From IMG/VR virus record IMGVR_UViG_3300021433_000093, positions 1-23,533 of that record: a stretch of 23,533 nt of DNA; one strand, given 5' to 3'. A program made the position numbers and the translations under genes. Positions 12,232 to 23,270 of the stretch are shown here, piece by piece. Position 1 is the first letter of the stretch; the number at the start of each line of letters is the position of its first letter. The stretch is from a virus. Under the pieces are notes generated by a model. It did no database searches. It had not been told where the DNA came from and saw only the letters and a list, made by a program, of their open reading frames with translations.

Positions 12232-13716
12232 CTACTGCGCGAGCTGGATAGCTACGGTCGAGTACGCGGGAACATCGGCCTTCACCATCGCTTCATCAGC
12301 GGGCGCGGCCCTTAGATCCTGCTTAGTTAGTGAGTTATTGCCCAGGGTGAATAGCTGGCTGTGCGTCGGCTTGATGCCCAGGTGCGAGAACTTCACCCGC
12401 AGCCCGCTAACCGCCGTGGCCGTGGGATTGATGAGCACCAGAGTATCTGCTGTTGGGTTGTAGAACGTGATGGTAAGCAAGCCGCTCGGCGCTGTCGGTG
12501 GAACCACTACGTTGAAGCCTGTCTCTTCGAGGTTGAGATAATCGCTCGCGCAGAACAGCTGAAAGGCCATCAGCGACGGATAGGGCACATAGGCGGCGTT
12601 GTAGGGCTGCCCATCCTTCGGGGGGTTGCACATCAGCGGATCGCCGCCCTGAATCCCCTCAAGGCAGAAATACCCCCGGCTGTCTGCGGACATGAAGTAG
12701 ACGATTCGACCAGGCGGCAGCGAGCCTTGCGCTACCACATCGAGAAAATCAGCAATCGCTACCGTGTTCCACAAAGGCCCATATACCGTGTCGTTCTGTA
12801 CGTTGTTCGGCTGGTACGCATAGTTGGTGTTGTACTCACTGACGATGATCGGCGTGGTGGCCGCGTTGGGCTGCGAGCCTTTGCGAACGGTTTGCTCAAG
12901 CTGGCGATAGTAGTAGGCGATTCCGCCAGTCGGGTTTTGCGTCGTCTGGTAAGCCTGGTCCCAAGTCATCCCCGGAAGCAACCAGGTGCCGGTGATGTAG
13001 ACGTGCCACGAAACGAAATCGACATAGGGCGCGGTGGCCCCGCTCAACAAGGGCGGTATCCAGCTGGCGATGTTGGCGGAGCTGGCCAGCGTGGGACCGC
13101 CTAGCTTGGCCGTGGGTGCGGCCTTTCTAAATTCCGGTCCCAAGGCCCCATAGAGTTTTAGATAGTTCCCCAGAGGATCGGACGGCGGGCAGAAACTGCC
13201 GTTGGCAACATCTGGCTCATTCCACAGTTCGTAATTCAATCCGGGGTGGAGCTGGTCCGTGTGCTTGACCGCCTGCGCCGCCAGCTGCGCCCACTTGGTT
13301 AGATTGCTCGGCATCGAGCATGGCTGCGGCCCCAGGCTCGGCGGCGTGCCGTAAATCGTAATCATGGGGCTTAACCCGTTCTGCGTGCCGCGTGACAACT
13401 GCCCATCCCAGGCGCTGTAGTTCGGCGTGTCGCCGTTGGCAAAGATGGTTTGAACGTTGATCCAGATACGATTACCGCGCAGGTTTACTTTGGTCAGATT
13501 GTCGATTCCGCTTTGACTCGAAACCGTCGAGCCTACACCGCCGCTGCCGAAGAAGTTCGGCGGCACGCTGACCGTGCTTGTGCGTCCACCAAAGTCCGCG
13601 ACCACATCGGCAGGCTTGTGGTGATGGAACAGCCACCAGAGCACCAGGAAAGCCAGCACCATGACAAGGAAGGTGTACAGAAACATGAATTTATAAAATT
13701 TTGGGTTGCCTGCCAT
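12232..13716 (-). CDS. Membrane-anchored clan GH-A glycoside hydrolase (GH39-like)
   Basis: A 494-residue protein. Residues 9-30 (KFMFLYTFLVMVLAFLVLWW) form an uncleaved N-terminal anchor, so the catalytic domain should face outside the inner membrane. A TIM-barrel domain follows with the clan GH-A signatures YELWNEPD (Glu-167, acid/base), SWHVY (237-240 region) and IIVSEYNTNY (Glu-294, nucleophile). The last 85 residues form a beta domain (TFYNPTADTLVLINPTAT), usual in GH39 and related families. It is likely a retaining enzyme on a xylan-, mannan- or exopolysaccharide-type substrate; which one cannot be told. GAGAGG lies upstream of the ATG. It sits in the virion operon between a zinc-finger gene and the DUF3309-like peptide, an unusual place for a metabolic-type enzyme. 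Depolymerase and auxiliary metabolic gene are both possible. Confidence 0.85.
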   Translation of the reverse strand: MAGNPKFYKFMFLYTFLVMVLAFLVLWWLFHHHKPADVVADFGGRTSTVSVPPNFFGSGGVGSTVSSQSGIDNLTKVNLRGNRIWINVQTIFANGDTPNYSAWDGQLSRGTQNGLSPMITIYGTPPSLGPQPCSMPSNLTKWAQLAAQAVKHTDQLHPGLNYELWNEPDVANGSFCPPSDPLGNYLKLYGALGPEFRKAAPTAKLGGPTLASSANIASWIPPLLSGATAPYVDFVSWHVYITGTWLLPGMTWDQAYQTTQNPTGGIAYYYRQLEQTVRKGSQPNAATTPIIVSEYNTNYAYQPNNVQNDTVYGPLWNTVAIADFLDVVAQGSLPPGRIVYFMSADSRGYFCLEGIQGGDPLMCNPPKDGQPYNAAYVPYPSLMAFQLFCASDYLNLEETGFNVVVPPTAPSGLLTITFYNPTADTLVLINPTATAVSGLRVKFSHLGIKPTHSQLFTLGNNSLTKQDLRAAPADEAMVKADVPAYSTVAIQLAQ

Positions 13717-13727
13717 GATGCCGCCTC

Positions 13728-13964
13728 TCAGTCGTCGTCGTTGGATAGCTGGCCCGGTACTTTGCCCCTAGTGCCGCAGCGATCGCAGGGGATGCCACCA
13801 GGCCGAAGCCCGCAGCCGTCGCAGTCGGGACAGGTGATAACTGTAGCTTTGCCTTTACAGAACGGACACAGGACTTTGCAGCGGAATTTAAAAACTTCAC
13901 GTCTAGCAATTATAGATTTTACTTTTCTAGCTTTCGGGCAAGGTTCGAGAATCGCGATGCTCAT
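13728..13964 (-). CDS. DnaJ-type zinc-finger (CxxCxGxG) small protein
   Basis: A 78-residue protein. After a basic N-terminus it carries CPFCKGKATV, CPDCDGCG and CDRCGTRGKV, i.e. C-x-x-C-x-G-x-x/G repeats as in the central cysteine-rich domain of DnaJ, without J-domain or substrate-binding domain. Stand-alone domains of this type are common in phages and plant/bacterial accessory factors. A role in protein folding or assembly is possible but unproven. Its ATG overlaps the portal stop (ATGA at 13961-13964). An AT island (about 13885-13930) codes its Lys/Ile/Phe-rich N-terminal region. Confidence 0.78.
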   Translation of the reverse strand: MSIAILEPCPKARKVKSIIARREVFKFRCKVLCPFCKGKATVITCPDCDGCGLRPGGIPCDRCGTRGKVPGQLSNDDD

Positions 13965-16129
13965 TGCGGATTCATCCCCCCTTCCAGCACTTGCTCATCC
14001 CCTTTGCGCTCGGCCAGCGCCATAGCGCGATTGAGCGGGACGCCTTCCTCGGTGCGCTCCATCGCTTTTTCGGTGATGGTGTTGGCGAGGTTGTCTTGTG
14101 ACTGCGCGTGTATCTCCGCGATGCGGTTCTGTCCGCGTGCCTGCTCAACCTGTAGCTTGCCCTGATTCTGCGCCTGCATGGGCGCAGCCGTGGCCTGCTG
14201 CACGTTTTGCTTTTCCTGCGGGGTGAGAGGCCGGATGATGTCCGGCTGTTGTTGCAGCTCGGAAACCTGCATGAGTAGATCCACGATCGTGGCAAAGTCG
14301 ATGGTGTCGCCGCGTGCGTGGAGAAACTGCAAGAGCTGCGGCTGCTGCACCATCTGCATGAAGAAGGGAATCACTTGTTGAATCCCCTGGCGCTTGGCCA
14401 GCTTTTCGCCAGCTAAAACTAAAACCTCAAATTCTGAATTTAAAAGTTGATTGACAAACAGGCTGTCGATCATGGCTTTGGAGTATTTCTCGGTGAGGAT
14501 CTCGCGAATCTCCCACAGCGGCATATTCTCTTTCACCATGTCGATCAGCCAGTAAACGACGCGCACGATAACGCCCTCGGAGACCGCCTCGACCGGCGTT
14601 GACACTGTTTCATCGGCCTTGTTCGCGATGCGGCTCGCGCCGGTCGCTGTGCGTGCGGCGGAGCTGCCGGGTCCGGGTAGGTTGCCCTGCATAAAGGCGG
14701 AGTTCGCGCCGCTGATGTCGTCGGCGCTCTGCGAGGACATCTCCAGCATGTGCCACGCATCGGCGGGCACGTTGGGCATTTCTAAAAATCCAACCTGGCG
14801 TTTTAGATCTGCACCTGGCGGCATCCCCTCGATCTGCCAGAATCCGCCCAGTCGGTGAATCACGTTTTGGGTCGGGGAATTGAGGCCGGACGCTACCATG
14901 AGCGGCGCATTCATGGGGTAGGCGATCATTTTTAAACACTCGTTCAAAACGCCCTGGTTGATGCGTTGGTCCGCGCCGGTACTGCGGCCTATGCCGATGC
15001 CCAGACCGCAATTGTCGATGTTCCACCAGTTAGCCGTGACGTGGATACAAGTGTCGTCGTGCGCCTCATTGCGGATGGTTAGTTTCTTGCCTTCGTAGTA
15101 GAGAATCGTCTGCACGTTCTCACAGTCCCACCGCTCGATGAGCATTAGCGGCTTCAGCAAAGGATCTTCGGAAGTCTGCGAGCTAGGCGCTTCGGAGTGC
15201 GTCACCGCGCTGCCTTCGCTGCTCATGTTCTGCGCTACGGTGGTCGCATACGGTGCGTCACCGATCGGGCGCGAGAAGAAGAACGCCCGCAGCGTGGCCT
15301 CGTCGGGAATGTTCTTATAGCACTCCAGCTGCCGCATCTGTTGCAGATCAGCGAAAGTTACATAATCAATATCGACGCAGTAATTGCCGCTTAGATCGGG
15401 CCGGTTGGGTGTAGACCACTTTGGATCAAAGAGCGTGGTCCCCAACTTGCGATATTCAAAACACGGCCACGATTCGGTGACTTCCTTCTCGATCACATCG
15501 AAGTCGTCACTTTCAACCGTGTTGATTTTCTTTTCCCCAAACGGACTGTTGATGGTGATGGGGGCTTTCTTCCGCACGCGATATTTCCGTCGCACCGTGC
15601 GCGTGTCCCAGAATGCTTTTCCTATGCCGGTGCCTTGCAGACATTGGCAGTCGATCAGCAAGCCAACGTGATACTGAAAATTCATGCGCTGTAGCAGCTT
15701 CCCGATTAGCACCGTCCAGGCATCGGCCATTGTCTGCGTTGTGTTCTTCGATGGGCGCAGGAAAAAAGGCACAGTCTCGGAGAACAGAGCGCGTTTCACT
15801 TGCCGCGACATGGTGTTGCTGTTCTTCGCGACTAAGTAGCGCGAGATGCGCCCTGGTCGCCCGTGTTCGTTGTAGGGGTAACGGTCGAGGTTGGGCGACT
15901 GGTAGAGGATGTCGGTGTGCTGCCATTCGAGAAGCCAGAGGTTCGATTCAACGTAGTTCTTTGCCCTCTGGTAGTCCTGCCATGCGATCGTTGCCGCCGC
16001 GTCGTCGGTCCAGACCTTCGGAGCTGCTCCGCCCTCTGTGGTGGTCTCCTGGTGCGATCGGATGGGCAGGGCGATTACCTGGCCGGGTGGCATCGCTCCT
16101 GGGGTCGCTTCTCTCGCGTTGGTCGCCAC
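13961..16129 (-). CDS. Portal protein
   Basis: A 722-residue protein directly downstream of the large terminase, the normal portal position, and with portal-like length for podoviruses. The N-terminal part has WQDYQRAKNYVESNLWLLEW and RISRYLVAKNSNTMSRQVKR. The core has LLIDCQCLQGTGIGKAFWDT and NIDNCGLGIGIGRSTGADQR with NECLKMIAYPMNAPLM. A Gln-rich C-terminal coiled coil follows (QQATAAPMQAQNQGKLQVEQ onward). It should form the dodecameric ring at the capsid vertex through which DNA is packaged. The start is GTG at 16127-16129 after the terminase TAA, with only a weak upstream site (GGACGG). The next gene overlaps by ATGA. Confidence 0.88.
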   Translation of the reverse strand: MATNAREATPGAMPPGQVIALPIRSHQETTTEGGAAPKVWTDDAAATIAWQDYQRAKNYVESNLWLLEWQHTDILYQSPNLDRYPYNEHGRPGRISRYLVAKNSNTMSRQVKRALFSETVPFFLRPSKNTTQTMADAWTVLIGKLLQRMNFQYHVGLLIDCQCLQGTGIGKAFWDTRTVRRKYRVRKKAPITINSPFGEKKINTVESDDFDVIEKEVTESWPCFEYRKLGTTLFDPKWSTPNRPDLSGNYCVDIDYVTFADLQQMRQLECYKNIPDEATLRAFFFSRPIGDAPYATTVAQNMSSEGSAVTHSEAPSSQTSEDPLLKPLMLIERWDCENVQTILYYEGKKLTIRNEAHDDTCIHVTANWWNIDNCGLGIGIGRSTGADQRINQGVLNECLKMIAYPMNAPLMVASGLNSPTQNVIHRLGGFWQIEGMPPGADLKRQVGFLEMPNVPADAWHMLEMSSQSADDISGANSAFMQGNLPGPGSSAARTATGASRIANKADETVSTPVEAVSEGVIVRVVYWLIDMVKENMPLWEIREILTEKYSKAMIDSLFVNQLLNSEFEVLVLAGEKLAKRQGIQQVIPFFMQMVQQPQLLQFLHARGDTIDFATIVDLLMQVSELQQQPDIIRPLTPQEKQNVQQATAAPMQAQNQGKLQVEQARGQNRIAEIHAQSQDNLANTITEKAMERTEEGVPLNRAMALAERKGDEQVLEGGMNPQ

Positions 16130-16132
16130 GTT

Positions 16133-17887
16133 TTAACCGTCCAGTCCGTAGAGATTGTTCGGCAATCCAAGTGCATTGGTGCTATTCAGCGCTCTAAGGC
16201 TGGCCATACGCTCCGCCTCGGCCTTGTCCTGCATCAGCCGCCCCCCTCGCTGGCCAAAGGCCATACGAAACATTGCGTCTTGGCGGCGCTTCTCTTGCAG
16301 TGCCACTTCTTCTTCGCTGATTTCGCGGCGCATCAGCGAGACCGGCACGCGGGCCGCAAGCCTGCTGATTGCGTCCACGATGCCGTTTTCTTGCACCAGT
16401 CCAAAATGAACAAATTGGCGGGCGATTTCCGACTGCTTACTGAGGCCGGTTGAGATGTGAACGCGCCCTGATTGCATCTGCGGTTCCAGCTGGCGGAGCC
16501 GCGCCTGCCGCACGTTGTCGTCCTCTTCAAATTCAAACCACTGCAAGCGCAGCGCCACGTTGCGCTTGAGCGATTCGTTTTTGATGTGCGATTCCATGTA
16601 CTCCGTGCCCGGTATGGCTTCAAGCAACAGGGTTGGAGTCTCGAAGTGCTTTTGCTCGCGGATGATCTTCTCCGCGAGGCCGGACGGGGTAAAGATGCCC
16701 TGCCACGCATCGAGAATGTAAATTCGCCCGTTCCAGATCCGCGCCGCCGCGCCCTCGGCGTGCTTGCTCATGTAGTCTTTGCCGCCATAAGGCAAGCGCC
16801 AGCAAATGACCGTCTCGCCCATCGGGGGGATGCGATCGGGCGACATGAGGACGCTGGCATACAGCTTTTCGCCAAAGGTGGAAACAGATCCGCCCTTGGG
16901 GTCGTTCTGCTGCTGCGTCATAAACGATTCGTAACTTTCATAGAACTTTTCGCGCAGCGTTTCGTAAGACAGCAATTGCGGGAAGTGCAGAATCACTTCG
17001 TCTTCACTAGGGAAAACCCCAGGCATGAGCGGCTCACCGCTGATGACGGTTAAAGAACCTCGAATTAAAACTTTCCAAGAATCTGGATTTTTGGCAATTT
17101 GGGTCAACACATCGCCGTACAGCTCGAAGGGGTGATACCGGGTGCCGCGAATGTTGATGTAACCGCCGTGCCGCAGAAGATTCTTGTTCACGTAGTACGT
17201 GTCAATCACGGTTTGGCGCGTGGTCTGCTCGGCGTGAATGCCGCTGTTGATGGCATCGCACATATCGTCTGGATCGATGATCCACGGGTGCCAGCCCGCC
17301 TGCGAAGTTTTGGGGCTGGTGTAGTCAAGCGTGTGATCCATCTCGATGATCGAGTGACAGGCGGTGTCCCATTTCGCGTCAGGCTTAGTTGACGTGACGA
17401 TGTGCGGGTAAAGCGCCTGCAACACGGTCGGCGCGTTGCCTGGTCGCTGCCAGAAGAATTTCGCCACAGACAGCGACAGCGCCTCGGCCAGCGGTTGCGT
17501 TGCGGATTCGTTGAGAATCGTAATAAGTTCGGGAAAGGCGGCGATCCATTGCGCCTTGTCCACTTTGCCAAGCGTGCTCTTGAACGTGTGGCGGGGGTCG
17601 AGATGCAGGCGATACTTAACTGGGTGCTGATCCTCGATGCTTAGATTTTTATTTTTTGGGAAATAAAGATCGACGGCGGGTTGATGCAACTCGGGGATGA
17701 ATTTATCAAACCCTAAAATCTCCGCCGCGAAAAAATGATCGCTCTCGAAGCGGTGGCGCAGTTCGTCCCCATATTCCTTATCCTCCGCGATCTGCGCGAT
17801 GTAGATAGTTCCGAAGCTGGTATGCCTCGGCGCGGCGGGTTTGGATTTATGCGCGTCTGCGGGCCTCGGGAGTCTCGTCGCTGGCAT
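16133..17887 (-). CDS. Terminase large subunit
   Basis: A 584-residue packaging motor protein. Residues 95-106 (HLDPRHTFKSTL) occupy the Walker A position, where Phe replaces the Gly usually before Lys. ITILNESATQPLAE (123-136) fits the following strand/helix. GWHPWIIDPDDMCDAINS (198-215) and RGTRYHPFELYGDVL (247-261) are conserved landmarks of this terminase type. The C-terminal nuclease region includes VICWRLPYGGKDYMSKHAEG and TLLLEAIPGTEYMESHIKNE; the first catalytic Asp is not obvious to me. ATG 17885-17887 overlaps the upstream TAA (TAATG), so it is coupled to the 101-residue gene. The family assignment is firm; subfamily is not. Confidence 0.88.
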   Translation of the reverse strand: MPATRLPRPADAHKSKPAAPRHTSFGTIYIAQIAEDKEYGDELRHRFESDHFFAAEILGFDKFIPELHQPAVDLYFPKNKNLSIEDQHPVKYRLHLDPRHTFKSTLGKVDKAQWIAAFPELITILNESATQPLAEALSLSVAKFFWQRPGNAPTVLQALYPHIVTSTKPDAKWDTACHSIIEMDHTLDYTSPKTSQAGWHPWIIDPDDMCDAINSGIHAEQTTRQTVIDTYYVNKNLLRHGGYINIRGTRYHPFELYGDVLTQIAKNPDSWKVLIRGSLTVISGEPLMPGVFPSEDEVILHFPQLLSYETLREKFYESYESFMTQQQNDPKGGSVSTFGEKLYASVLMSPDRIPPMGETVICWRLPYGGKDYMSKHAEGAAARIWNGRIYILDAWQGIFTPSGLAEKIIREQKHFETPTLLLEAIPGTEYMESHIKNESLKRNVALRLQWFEFEEDDNVRQARLRQLEPQMQSGRVHISTGLSKQSEIARQFVHFGLVQENGIVDAISRLAARVPVSLMRREISEEEVALQEKRRQDAMFRMAFGQRGGRLMQDKAEAERMASLRALNSTNALGLPNNLYGLDG

Positions 17888-20763: not shown

Positions 20764-20990
20764 CGGTAGCCCTCGATCCAGCGCCGCACTTCGCGGGGGT
20801 TGCTGATCCAGCCGGGAACGATCATCAAGCCTATCCCCATCCTGTTGCCTACGTGATTTTCAAAGTGTGGGTTCTTGGTCATGTCCCTGAGCATTGACGT
20901 AAAGGCTTGTGGTGGATCGTGTGGGAGATAGGCCAAGGCGCGTTTCTTGGCTGCCGCTAGATACTCCTCATCTTCGAGCGTCACTGTCAC
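20760..20990 (-). CDS. Conserved small phage protein (TSML...EGY type)
   Basis: A 76-residue helical protein: KKRALAYLPHDPPQAFTSML, RDMTKNPHFENHVGN, then a loop GIGLMIVPGWISNPREVRRW and final IEGYR. The pattern 'A-x-T-S-M-L-x-D-(L/M)-x-K-x-P ... V-R-R-(F/W)-I-E-G-(F/Y)' is widespread in actinobacterial and other phages, with no assigned function. The start is GTG 20988-20990, overlapping the upstream stop as GTGA. The next gene overlaps by ATGA. Confidence 0.8.
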   Translation of the reverse strand: MTVTLEDEEYLAAAKKRALAYLPHDPPQAFTSMLRDMTKNPHFENHVGNRMGIGLMIVPGWISNPREVRRWIEGYR

Positions 20991-21478
20991 GGGCGCACCA
21001 GCCGATGATTTTTAAACCAGTCCATCAGGGCCTCTGCGCTGTCATGGCAGAGCAGGTATTCGCCGCCCGTGGCCTCGACGTTTTCGCGGAACAGGATTTG
21101 CTTTTCGGTCAGCCTGCCGGTCCCGGCTTTAGCCTCGCACCAGAGCGCTACCTGCACGCGATTGGCGTAAAACTCAGCTCCGCTCATCTCCGTTCGCAGC
21201 TCGATGGTTGGCGTACACAGGCAGTCTGCCATCCCGCCATAGTGCTCCTCGCCAAAGCGATCAGTCCACGCGCCAACCCACATAGGCCGTATCCGCCCAT
21301 CTTCCCCTGTGACCTCGAACATTCGCGACTGCATACGAAAGCAGGGCTGCCCGTGAACTGCCGCACACTGCATGATGGCGCTTACAACCGCGTTCGATGC
21401 GGATACACGGCGCGGGCCGCGTCCTGGGGCAACGTCGCGCTTGCGCGGGTTAAAGCTGCGTCTGCTGTCCCAGCTCAT
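20987..21478 (-). CDS. VRR-NUC family nuclease
   Basis: A 163-residue PD-(D/E)xK-type nuclease. GGMADCL (81-87, Asp-85), then VQVALWCEAKAGTGRLTEKQ (108-127; Glu-115, Lys-117 and a conserved Gln-127) and a final ATGGEYLLCHDSAEALMDWF make up the usual VRR-NUC catalytic set: G-x-x-D, E-x-K, R-L-x-x-x-Q and a terminal G-x-x-Y-x-V/L-x-x-S. Phage VRR-NUC proteins are structure-specific nucleases, often replacing a Holliday-junction resolvase, so it probably resolves recombination or packaging intermediates. An insertion of about 25 residues lies between Asp-85 and Glu-115. The start overlaps the previous gene (ATGA). Confidence 0.85.
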   Translation of the reverse strand: MSWDSRRSFNPRKRDVAPGRGPRRVSASNAVVSAIMQCAAVHGQPCFRMQSRMFEVTGEDGRIRPMWVGAWTDRFGEEHYGGMADCLCTPTIELRTEMSGAEFYANRVQVALWCEAKAGTGRLTEKQILFRENVEATGGEYLLCHDSAEALMDWFKNHRLVRP

Positions 21479-21920: not shown

Positions 21921-22120
21921 CCCTTTTTAGTTTTTAGATTTTTAGATGCTCGTTTAAATTTACCACGCCCGTCCGTGCCTAGCAGTACCCGCCGCGCTTC
22001 GTCTGACCGGCAGCGGGCGAGCTGTTCCATGAATGCCTCGGTGAGTTTGCGCCGCTCGATCACCTTCAGCCCGTAGAGTTCGGCCAGTCGAGCGCGGGCG
22101 GCATCGGTTACGCCCTTCAT
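21917..22120 (-). CDS. Small basic protein with heptamer-encoded tail
   Basis: A 67-residue protein from ATG 22118-22120, which overlaps the initiator gene's stop (ATGA); a longer frame start would lie inside that gene. It is mostly helical and basic: AARARLAELYGLKVIERRKL, TEAFMEQLARCRSDEARRVL, then a tail (KRASKNLKTKKG) encoded across three CTAAAAA heptamers. Charge and size suggest nucleic-acid binding. Proximity to the initiator could mean a replication accessory role, which is inference. Confidence 0.65.
   Translation of the reverse strand: MKGVTDAARARLAELYGLKVIERRKLTEAFMEQLARCRSDEARRVLLGTDGRGKFKRASKNLKTKKG
21924..21945. repeat. Three tandem TTTTTAG heptamers
   Basis: TTTTTAG at 21924-21930, 21931-21937 and 21939-21945, the longest run of the dispersed motif. 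It lies across the end of the gene at 21917-22120, where it encodes the Lys-rich tail, and supplies the ribosome-binding purines of the next gene. Confidence 0.8.
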
Positions 22121-22929
22121 TGCAGCCCCACTCGCATGTGTTGGGCCTGATCGAGTTTCGCCTGATCGATCGGCCAGCCGTCTACGTTGATCCAGTGCCC
22201 CTCCCTGATCCAGTTCCGCACGCCCCATCGAAAGCGCAAGTATGGGCCTAGCTTGATGAAATCTCCGTGGTTTTGGATCATCAGCCGCGCCGCCTCGGAA
22301 ACTTCCACGCTGGCGAACTGCGCGTATTGCTCAAGGGCTCTGGTGATGACAGTGGCTAGGCGCTCGTCGGTGAAGTGGCACTCATGCATAACCAGCTGAG
22401 TTTCAACGCGCACCCCTTCCGGCACGGAAGGGTAGGGTTGTTTAAGTTCTTTACTCTCTTTAATACTCTCTACAGAAGAGGGTTGGAGGTTTTTCCTCCT
22501 AGTGGTTGGAGGTTTTCCCTCCTTCCGGTTGGAGGTTTTCCCTCCTGCCGGTTGGAGGTTTTCCCTCCTAGTGGGGGCGAGGATAGCCTCTTTCGCCTGA
22601 AACACCGCTAAGTAGTTGACGCAGAAGTGCAAAACGTTGTTTTGGCCGCGTGTGTCTTCGCGGATGAAGCCAGCGGCTACCAGCTTCGCCCGCGCCGTCT
22701 CCTGTTCCCATCGGGTCATGGTGGTGTCGGCGGTCCATTGGTTCCGGCTGTGGTAAACCCATCGATCGCCGCCTGCGTCGGGGGGCACTCGTTCGGCCAG
22801 AAACAACATCTGGCAGAGCATTAAACCAGCTGTGATACTGCCAGCCATTCGTGCGTAAATAGCTTGAAATGCAATTACTTGAGATTCGCTTAAAAGCCGC
22901 TGTCGGGCTTGCTCAGCTGTGACTTGCAT
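22117..22929 (-). CDS. Replication initiator (gene O-like, winged-helix)
   Basis: A 270-residue protein from ATG 22927-22929 (GGGAGAGG 11 bases upstream); a GTG at 22948-22950 would add 7 residues. Residues 12-105 look like a winged-helix replication-initiation domain: ESQVIAFQAIYARMAGSITA, RWVYHSRNQWTADTTMTRWE and QETARAKLVAAGFIREDTRG. Residues 118-152 are Arg/Lys/Pro/Asn-rich and encoded by four iteron-like repeats. The C-terminal domain (FTDERLATVITRALEQYAQF, then FRWGVRNWIREGHWINVDGW) may bind a helicase loader or other partner. An initiator whose own gene carries the origin matches lambda O. It heads the leftward operon. Confidence 0.75.
   Translation of the reverse strand: MQVTAEQARQRLLSESQVIAFQAIYARMAGSITAGLMLCQMLFLAERVPPDAGGDRWVYHSRNQWTADTTMTRWEQETARAKLVAAGFIREDTRGQNNVLHFCVNYLAVFQAKEAILAPTRRENLQPAGGKTSNRKEGKPPTTRRKNLQPSSVESIKESKELKQPYPSVPEGVRVETQLVMHECHFTDERLATVITRALEQYAQFASVEVSEAARLMIQNHGDFIKLGPYLRFRWGVRNWIREGHWINVDGWPIDQAKLDQAQHMRVGLQ
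22437..22480. other. AT-rich, strand-asymmetric tract beside iterons (candidate unwinding element)
   Basis: Immediately left of the iteron array the plus strand reads pyrimidine-rich and AT-rich (GTTTAAGTTCTTTACTCTCT, then TTAATACTCTCTAC). Purines lie largely on the other strand. In lambda an AT-rich tract with the same kind of strand bias adjoins the four iterons and melts at initiation. The assignment here is by that analogy. Confidence 0.5.
22481..22569. repeat. Four iteron-like palindromic repeats, 23-bp period (candidate replication origin)
   Basis: GGTTGGAGGTTTTCCCTCCT occurs at 22504-22523, 22527-22546 and 22550-22569, and with one change (TTTTTC for TTTTCC) at 22481-22500. Spacers are 3 bp (AGT, TCC, GCC). 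Each unit contains GGAGG-N5-CCTCC. The exact 23-bp period is not a multiple of three, so the host gene reads successive units in different frames (RRENLQP, GGKTSNR, EGKPPTT, RRKNLQP). Conservation must therefore act on the DNA. Iterons of this number, size and place match an initiator-gene origin. Confidence 0.85.
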
Positions 22930-23036
22930 GTATACACGTACCTCTCCCACGTCGCAGACGCGGGGGATTAGCGCGCAAAAACGCGATCTAAAAAAAACGT
23001 TAAGTTATCGCGGAGTTTTGAACTTGGGGGTTCGCG

Positions 23037-23173
23037 CTCCGGTTAAGCTGTCGAGCTGCACCTGCCTACTGCGCCGTTTTCCGACAACCCTACAGCTGCC
23101 CGAAGAAGAATCAAGGGAAACGGCGCAGGGGTGAGAGGGACAACTTAACCGGAGACTTTAAGACCTCTCACCC
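23037..23173 (+). ncRNA. Candidate structured RNA with interleaved (pseudoknot) stems
   Basis: Stem A: CTCCGGTTAAGCTGTC (23037-23052) with GACAACTTAACCGGAG (23139-23154), 15 of 16 pairs. Stem B: CTGCGCCGTTTTCC (23069-23082) with GGGAAACGGCGCAG (23115-23128), 14 pairs with one U-G. Stem C: GGGTGAGAGG (23129-23138) with CCTCTCACCC (23164-23173), 10 pairs. The 3' arm of B, 5' arm of C and 3' arm of A abut without a spare base, and A and C interleave. Strand is uncertain: wobble pairs favour plus in B and minus in A. Confidence 0.55.
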
Positions 23174-23178
23174 TTGCG

Positions 23179-23270
23179 TTTGTGTCGCCTAAAACTCTAA
23201 GTCGGGAGACGTAGAGCAGCCAGTCCGTTGCAAGCGGACGCAGACAGATTAGGCGAGAGTTCCACACAAA
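23179..23270 (+). ncRNA. Candidate tRNA-like structured domain
   Basis: TTTGTGT (23179-23185) pairs with ACACAAA (23264-23270). Inside it CGCCTAA (23186-23192) pairs with TTAGGCG (23249-23255), a 7-bp acceptor-like stem. Two hairpins follow: CTCTA/TAGAG (23195-23199/23212-23216) with a D-loop-like AGTCGGGAGACG, and GTCCG-TTGCAAG-CGGAC (23223-23239), a 5-bp stem with 7-nt loop resembling a Cys GCA anticodon arm. There is no T-arm, so it is not a normal tRNA. AACTCT/AGAGTT offers an alternative pairing crossing the 7-bp stem. Confidence 0.45.

Follow-up and report, generated by a model that had tools for sequence, protein, structure and literature searches.

In phage lambda and the Stx phages the replication origin lies in the middle of the initiator gene, where palindromic iterons of ~18-19 bp each are found, four in the lambda ori within gene O and six in the Stx-phage oris (PMC7466680, PMC5043065). 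The lambda iterons are spaced at 20, 24 and 23 bp and are followed by an AT-rich tract, and dimers of the O protein bind them (PMC7466680, PMC5043065). The Obolenskvirus replication gene likewise has direct repeats in its middle, which were proposed in 2024 as a possible lambda-like origin (PMC10888812).

The window analysed here, a stretch of 23,533 nucleotides (IMG/VR virus record IMGVR_UViG_3300021433_000093, positions 1 to 23,533), shares with lambda the presence of palindromic iterons mid-initiator gene, followed by an AT-rich tract (Table 1). It differs from lambda in the sequence and orientation of the iteron arms (GGAGG-GAAAA-CCTCC against TCCCTC-AAAAC-GAGGGA) and in its strict 23-bp spacing. 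A preliminary description of this DNA had called the repeat sequence unrelated to that of lambda, which is only partly right, as G/C-rich arms around an A-tract are common to both. The same description likened the array to the lambda origin; the O-like character of the gene, the adjoining AT-rich tract, the recurrence of arrays in the same linker across the family and the covariation of the repeat with the DNA-binding domain all support this comparison. We regard it as very probable, on comparative sequence evidence, that the window array is the iteron part of a phage replication origin located inside its own initiator gene and bound by that initiator. While the lambda-type intragenic origin is a known arrangement, what is new is a two-residue specificity rule: two residue positions of a widespread O-like family probably set the sequence of the intragenic iterons, and would thereby define replicon types readable from sequence. 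If these residues set the iteron sequence, then initiator and origin would co-evolve within one gene. We found no published specificity rule of this kind in the open-access literature, most subscription journals lying outside the search.

Residues 25-115 of the window protein match PHROG 9773 ('replication initiation O-like', E=3e-17); the match ends at residue 115, the C-terminal part being diverged. Weaker matches are to other O-like and to DnaD-like families, and a tblastn search with the window protein returned 45 phage records, many of them annotated as O-like or replication proteins. Judged by these similarities, the gene is an O-like replication initiator, in agreement with its earlier designation as replication-initiator-like. 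Searches of Pfam and NCBIfam gave no match for the window protein, which therefore falls outside PF04492: its N-terminal domain is not the Phage_rep_O domain (PF04492 / TIGR01610), unlike that of lambda O, which matches strongly. Neither the RepA_N Pfam domain (PF06970) nor any PDB sequence was matched by the window protein.

An AlphaFold2 model built from a 50-sequence alignment predicts an N-terminal winged helix, with residues 96-111 as its beta wing, then a disordered linker and a helical C-terminal part. By these domain boundaries, the linker-coding stretch holds both the iterons and the AT-rich tract. When the model was compared with the PDB using Foldseek, the top matches were the RepA_N structures 4pql, 5kbj and 4pt7 (E 0.013-0.023, not significant); RepA_N initiators, known from staphylococcal plasmids and V. 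cholerae PLE satellites, are thus the best yet weak fold matches to a protein that does not carry Pfam RepA_N. The DnaD N-terminal domain (2v79) was also matched weakly and is a winged helix of similar shape, but this DnaD domain does not bind DNA (PMC7145576).

Table 1. Coordinates of the predicted initiator gene, its modelled domains and the adjoining DNA elements in the window.
Feature	Coordinates	Strand	Remarks
O-like replication initiator gene (predicted)	22117..22950	-	277 codons, GTG start, alternative ATG at codon 8
Winged-helix DNA-binding domain (predicted), residues 30-124	22579..22863	-	AlphaFold2 pLDDT ~97 over most; conserved among relatives
R69 codon, N-terminus of helix 2	22744..22746	-	Position tracking half-site base +7
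Recognition helix (predicted), residues 80-93	22672..22713	-	AlphaFold2; contains W81 (codon 22708-22710)
Predicted disordered linker, residues 125-177	22420..22578	-	Mostly low pLDDT, without secondary structure (AlphaFold2)
Iteron 1 in gene order	22550..22569	.	GGTTGGAGGTTTTCCCTCCT
Iteron 2 in gene order	22527..22546	.	Identical to GGTTGGAGGTTTTCCCTCCT
Iteron 3 in gene order	22504..22523	.	Identical to GGTTGGAGGTTTTCCCTCCT
Iteron 4 in gene order	22481..22500	.	One change, GGTTGGAGGTTTTTCCTCCT
AT-rich tract, candidate DNA unwinding element	22438..22477	.	Directly 3' (gene direction) of array
Predicted helical C-terminal part, residues 178-277	22120..22419	-	Low to medium model confidence

The array spans 22481-22569, exactly where the preliminary description had placed it: three identical copies of a 20-mer on the plus strand and a fourth with one change, with start-to-start distances of 23, 23 and 23 bp, each period consisting of the 20-mer plus a 3-bp spacer (AGT, TCC, GCC). 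The 20-mer occurred in none of 100 dinucleotide shuffles, and allowing up to 3 mismatches revealed no copy in the window beyond these four. The units had been described as 20-bp palindromes; four 20-mers each containing a palindrome are indeed present, but the symmetry covers 15 bp (GGAGG-N5-CCTCC, here GGAGG TTTTC CCTCC), not the whole 20-mer. A CRISPR-like array was rejected because the spacers are only 3 bp, and an Rfam search gave no match.

That the repeat might exist at the protein level, as a linker peptide repeat selected for itself, is suggested by the first and last units, which encode nearly the same peptide (RRENLQP and RRKNLQP). Three 23-bp periods make a whole number of codons, which puts these two in one frame; the codon phases of the four units along the coding (minus) strand are 0, 2, 1 and 0, so that both middle units fall in different frames and yield different peptides (AGGKTSNR and KEGKPPT). 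Moreover, a period-based array score is 56.2 for the window gene, whereas none of its ten synonymous-codon shuffles exceeded 29.5, and the repeats are therefore not forced by the encoded protein. A repeat maintained for its peptide is accordingly hardly credible, and the earlier argument that rotating frames put the identity of the units beyond the reach of protein selection stands. The odd repeat-encoded linker peptides would be explained by selection acting on the DNA and not on the peptide.

A viral-contig protein search using the window protein as sole query found no relatives, and the family scans used an alignment of distant phage relatives as query. The sample consisted first of 11 annotated phage relatives, then of 160 further loci from scans of viral and genome contigs; the comparison of repeat with protein drew on ~70 diverged relatives. 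In nearly all 11 annotated relatives, 14-mers are repeated at 22, 23 or 46 bp in the linker, and Pseudomonas phage Atpa001 has six copies at exactly 23 bp there. Among phages with PHROG 9773-type initiators, Hollowayvirus, Obolenskvirus (Brutus/Scipio, Cato) and Acinetobacter phage TRS1 have a winged helix homologous to that of the window protein, followed by the same linker with a 22/23-bp array; the window shares only 17-28% identity with such relatives over the alignment, and differs from them in its palindrome and in its W81/R69 pair.

Arrays scoring above the 99th percentile of synonymous shuffles were found in 67 of 123 single-domain family genes. Spacings in these arrays were 23 bp (293), 22 bp (45), 24 bp (15) and 21 bp (4), such that 338 of 357 were 22 or 23 bp; the score permits steps of 21 to 24 only, and an unrestricted repeat search agrees, giving spacings of 22, 23, 45 and 46 bp. 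Of 250 control ORFs from the same loci, only two scored above 30: one was lambda O, which was part of this pool, and the other a frame that overlaps an O-like gene. As 13 of 53 diverged family representatives scored below 25, arrays appear to be common in the family but not universal, or else too diverged for the score.

The identity of three units, together with a linker whose predicted disorder could make insertions tolerable, might point instead to a recent mobile palindromic element or tandem duplication, selfish in the manner of Rickettsia palindromic elements, sitting in the linker and having no origin function. Against this, the position of the array and its 22/23-bp period recur, with different repeat sequences, in relatives whose overall identity is only ~17-28%, the repeat sequence covaries with the DNA-binding domain (see below), and no copies lie elsewhere in the contig. 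We consider such an origin for the array very improbable; the mobile palindrome was one of three explanations, along with the protein repeat and antisense terminators, that we considered and rejected.

The tract directly beside the array is ~70% AT, compared with 44.6% for the ORF. Across 94 array genes the 40 bp directly downstream of the array exceed the gene in AT content by a mean of 13.7 percentage points, and enrichment right after the array is seen in 96% of them. This tract bears on another reading of the palindromes, as autoregulatory operators or RNA elements that control expression of the initiator and not replication, whether by binding the initiator or another factor or by forming hairpins in mRNA or antisense RNA. 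Binding sites in a coding region could block transcription, autoregulation is compatible with an origin role, and units on the plus strand can form terminator-like hairpins (CCTCC-N8-GGAGG-TTTT). Yet these are no more frequent than in shuffles (3 found, 2.4 expected), and promoter and terminator scans gave nothing exceeding chance. Further, the palindromes of relatives differ in sequence (those of locus L007, for instance, are TGCGGAAAACCTGCA), yet they retain the period, the symmetry of the DNA and the match to the recognition helix, and the AT-rich tract after the array is likewise retained. A purely regulatory role is on this evidence improbable, if less so than a mobile element.

Returning to the array as part of an origin, the preliminary description had proposed looking for co-variation of the repeat with the N-terminal domain of the initiator, and this is what we observe. 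Iteron matrices were aligned to one register via a family template with well-conserved outer bases, and all winged-helix columns were scanned using 36 representatives (<75% identity). Column 63, the x of TRxEQ in the recognition helix and W81 in the window, accounts best for the core half-site at +2 to +5 (z 12.0); the runner-up, column 67, lies four residues or one helix turn further on (z 6.0). Column 63 again came first in a larger set of 56 representatives (z 14.4, next 8.8). At equal identity, pairs of proteins with the same x have closer cores than pairs with different x (0.27 vs 0.47 at 50-60% identity). Conversely, the residue class could be predicted from the core in 42 of 50 cases by leave-one-out when training was limited to proteins <60% identical outside the helix (under permutation, the mean was 26% and the maximum 46%); a nearest-protein baseline was right in 21 of 56.

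For the outer half-site bases, the best columns are in the wing (87) and at the N-terminus of helix 2 (51, 50), with R69 the window residue at column 51. All 11 genes with Arg at column 51 have C at +7, against 0 of 103 with other residues; for representatives <65% identical, the figures are 5/5 and 0/21 (Fisher p=1.5e-5). As this rule emerged from a scan of ~950 column-position pairs, the Bonferroni-corrected value is ~0.01 at the strictest clustering.

In its proposed form, the core rule would pair x = R with CGCC (right half-site), K with G at +3, W with CCTC, and Y, S, T, F, D or E with C at +3, and the outer-base rule would pair R as first variable residue of helix 2 with C at +7. We assessed it on proteins from the last two scans, predictions having been fixed beforehand. 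A first hold-out held 3 independent proteins only and was enlarged by further scans to 35 proteins, each sharing <75% identity with all those sampled before and with the other 34; 16 of the 35 have an array score >30. A nearest-centroid classifier, trained on earlier proteins only and whose form was picked after the simple tests, was right for 15 of these 16 (6.7 expected; no permutation out of 5000 did as well) and, at a looser score of 20, for 22 of 27. The simple tests were more mixed, two of four not being significant as coded. K63 accompanied G at +3 in 1/1 vs 1/15 at score 30 and in 3/3 vs 1/24 at score 20 (p=0.0014). No gene with Arg at column 51 was available at score 30, and at score 20 R51 went with C at +7 in 2/2 vs 0/25 (p=0.003). 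With averaged half-sites, R63 with G at +4 was not significant (6/8 vs 3/8, p=0.31), and neutral or acidic x with C at +3 gave no discrimination (p=1.0). When the right half-site alone is read, a reading introduced after the averaged version had failed, all 8 held-out genes with R63 have GCC at +4 to +6, compared with 0 of the 8 others.

The W found at column 63 in the window is rare. Locus L383, which has W at x and Gln at column 51, has palindromes ATGAGGAAAAACCACAT with left half-site CCTCA, whereas the left half-site of the window (W81, R69) is CCTCC; in L473, where the two residues are W and Arg, the repeats are weak and show C at +7. The window, L383 and L473 thus fit an association of W with CCTC and of Arg with the outer C, although these are very few proteins. 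A further W-type relative, L200, has no array in its gene.

For the window array we infer that the initiator binds and dimerises on the DNA, that the strands open, that a helicase is recruited and that replication starts there. In this scheme, every GGAGG-N5-CCTCC palindrome would be occupied by one dimer of the N-terminal winged helix, W81 in the recognition helix lying on the inner bases and R69 at the N-terminus of helix 2 on the outer base pair. Four such dimers at 23-bp spacing would build an O-some-like complex that could strain and open the adjoining AT-rich tract, after which the C-terminal part of the initiator may assist in recruiting the replicative helicase. No gene for lambda P, DnaC or a helicase could be recognised among those ORFs of the window that were searched; the contig is a fragment, with 583 bp left upstream of the initiator gene.

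If the rule holds, both the origin, which is not known for most uncultured phages, and its specificity class could be read from the initiator gene, the effects of one- or two-residue swaps would become predictable, and incompatibility or superinfection groups could be guessed from sequence.

Several other features of the window were observed. Upstream of the initiator gene, 23037-23178 contains nested and overlapping inverted repeats of 16, 14 and 15 nt (93-94% complementary), and on the gene strand the region 23020-23260 folds far better than shuffles (z -4.3), with no Rfam match. Near the initiator gene, 20987-21478 encodes a 163-aa protein with weak similarity to the Holliday junction resolvase family PHROG 5702, and a 494-aa protein matching glycoside hydrolase family 39 (E=9e-11) is encoded at 12232-13716, among phage structural genes. 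The region 13961-17887 includes a terminase with no phage match at E 1e-5 and a portal whose sole match, at 27% identity, is to Tunturiibacter (Acidobacteriota) phage Tunturi_3; the host of the window phage may be an acidobacterium.

Arrays were also encountered in other kinds of gene. A tandem pair of the window palindrome core occurs in one other contig, L005, where the full palindrome differs (CCTCCCAAAAAGGGAGG) and the array gene belongs to no recognisable family. In the same contig (9344-9546), six copies of a AACCTCCCTTTTTGGGAG-type palindrome, three of them at 22 bp, lie inside the coding sequence of a gene without any family match, and this array looks like another intragenic origin with a lambda-like palindrome. 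Two-winged-helix proteins (L130, L109, L172 and similar loci), some of which weakly resemble the STY4528 island replication family, can also have arrays in their genes. At L130 (4165-4348), palindromes of two types follow each other in turn with a super-period of 46 bp, as though each winged-helix domain read its own site.
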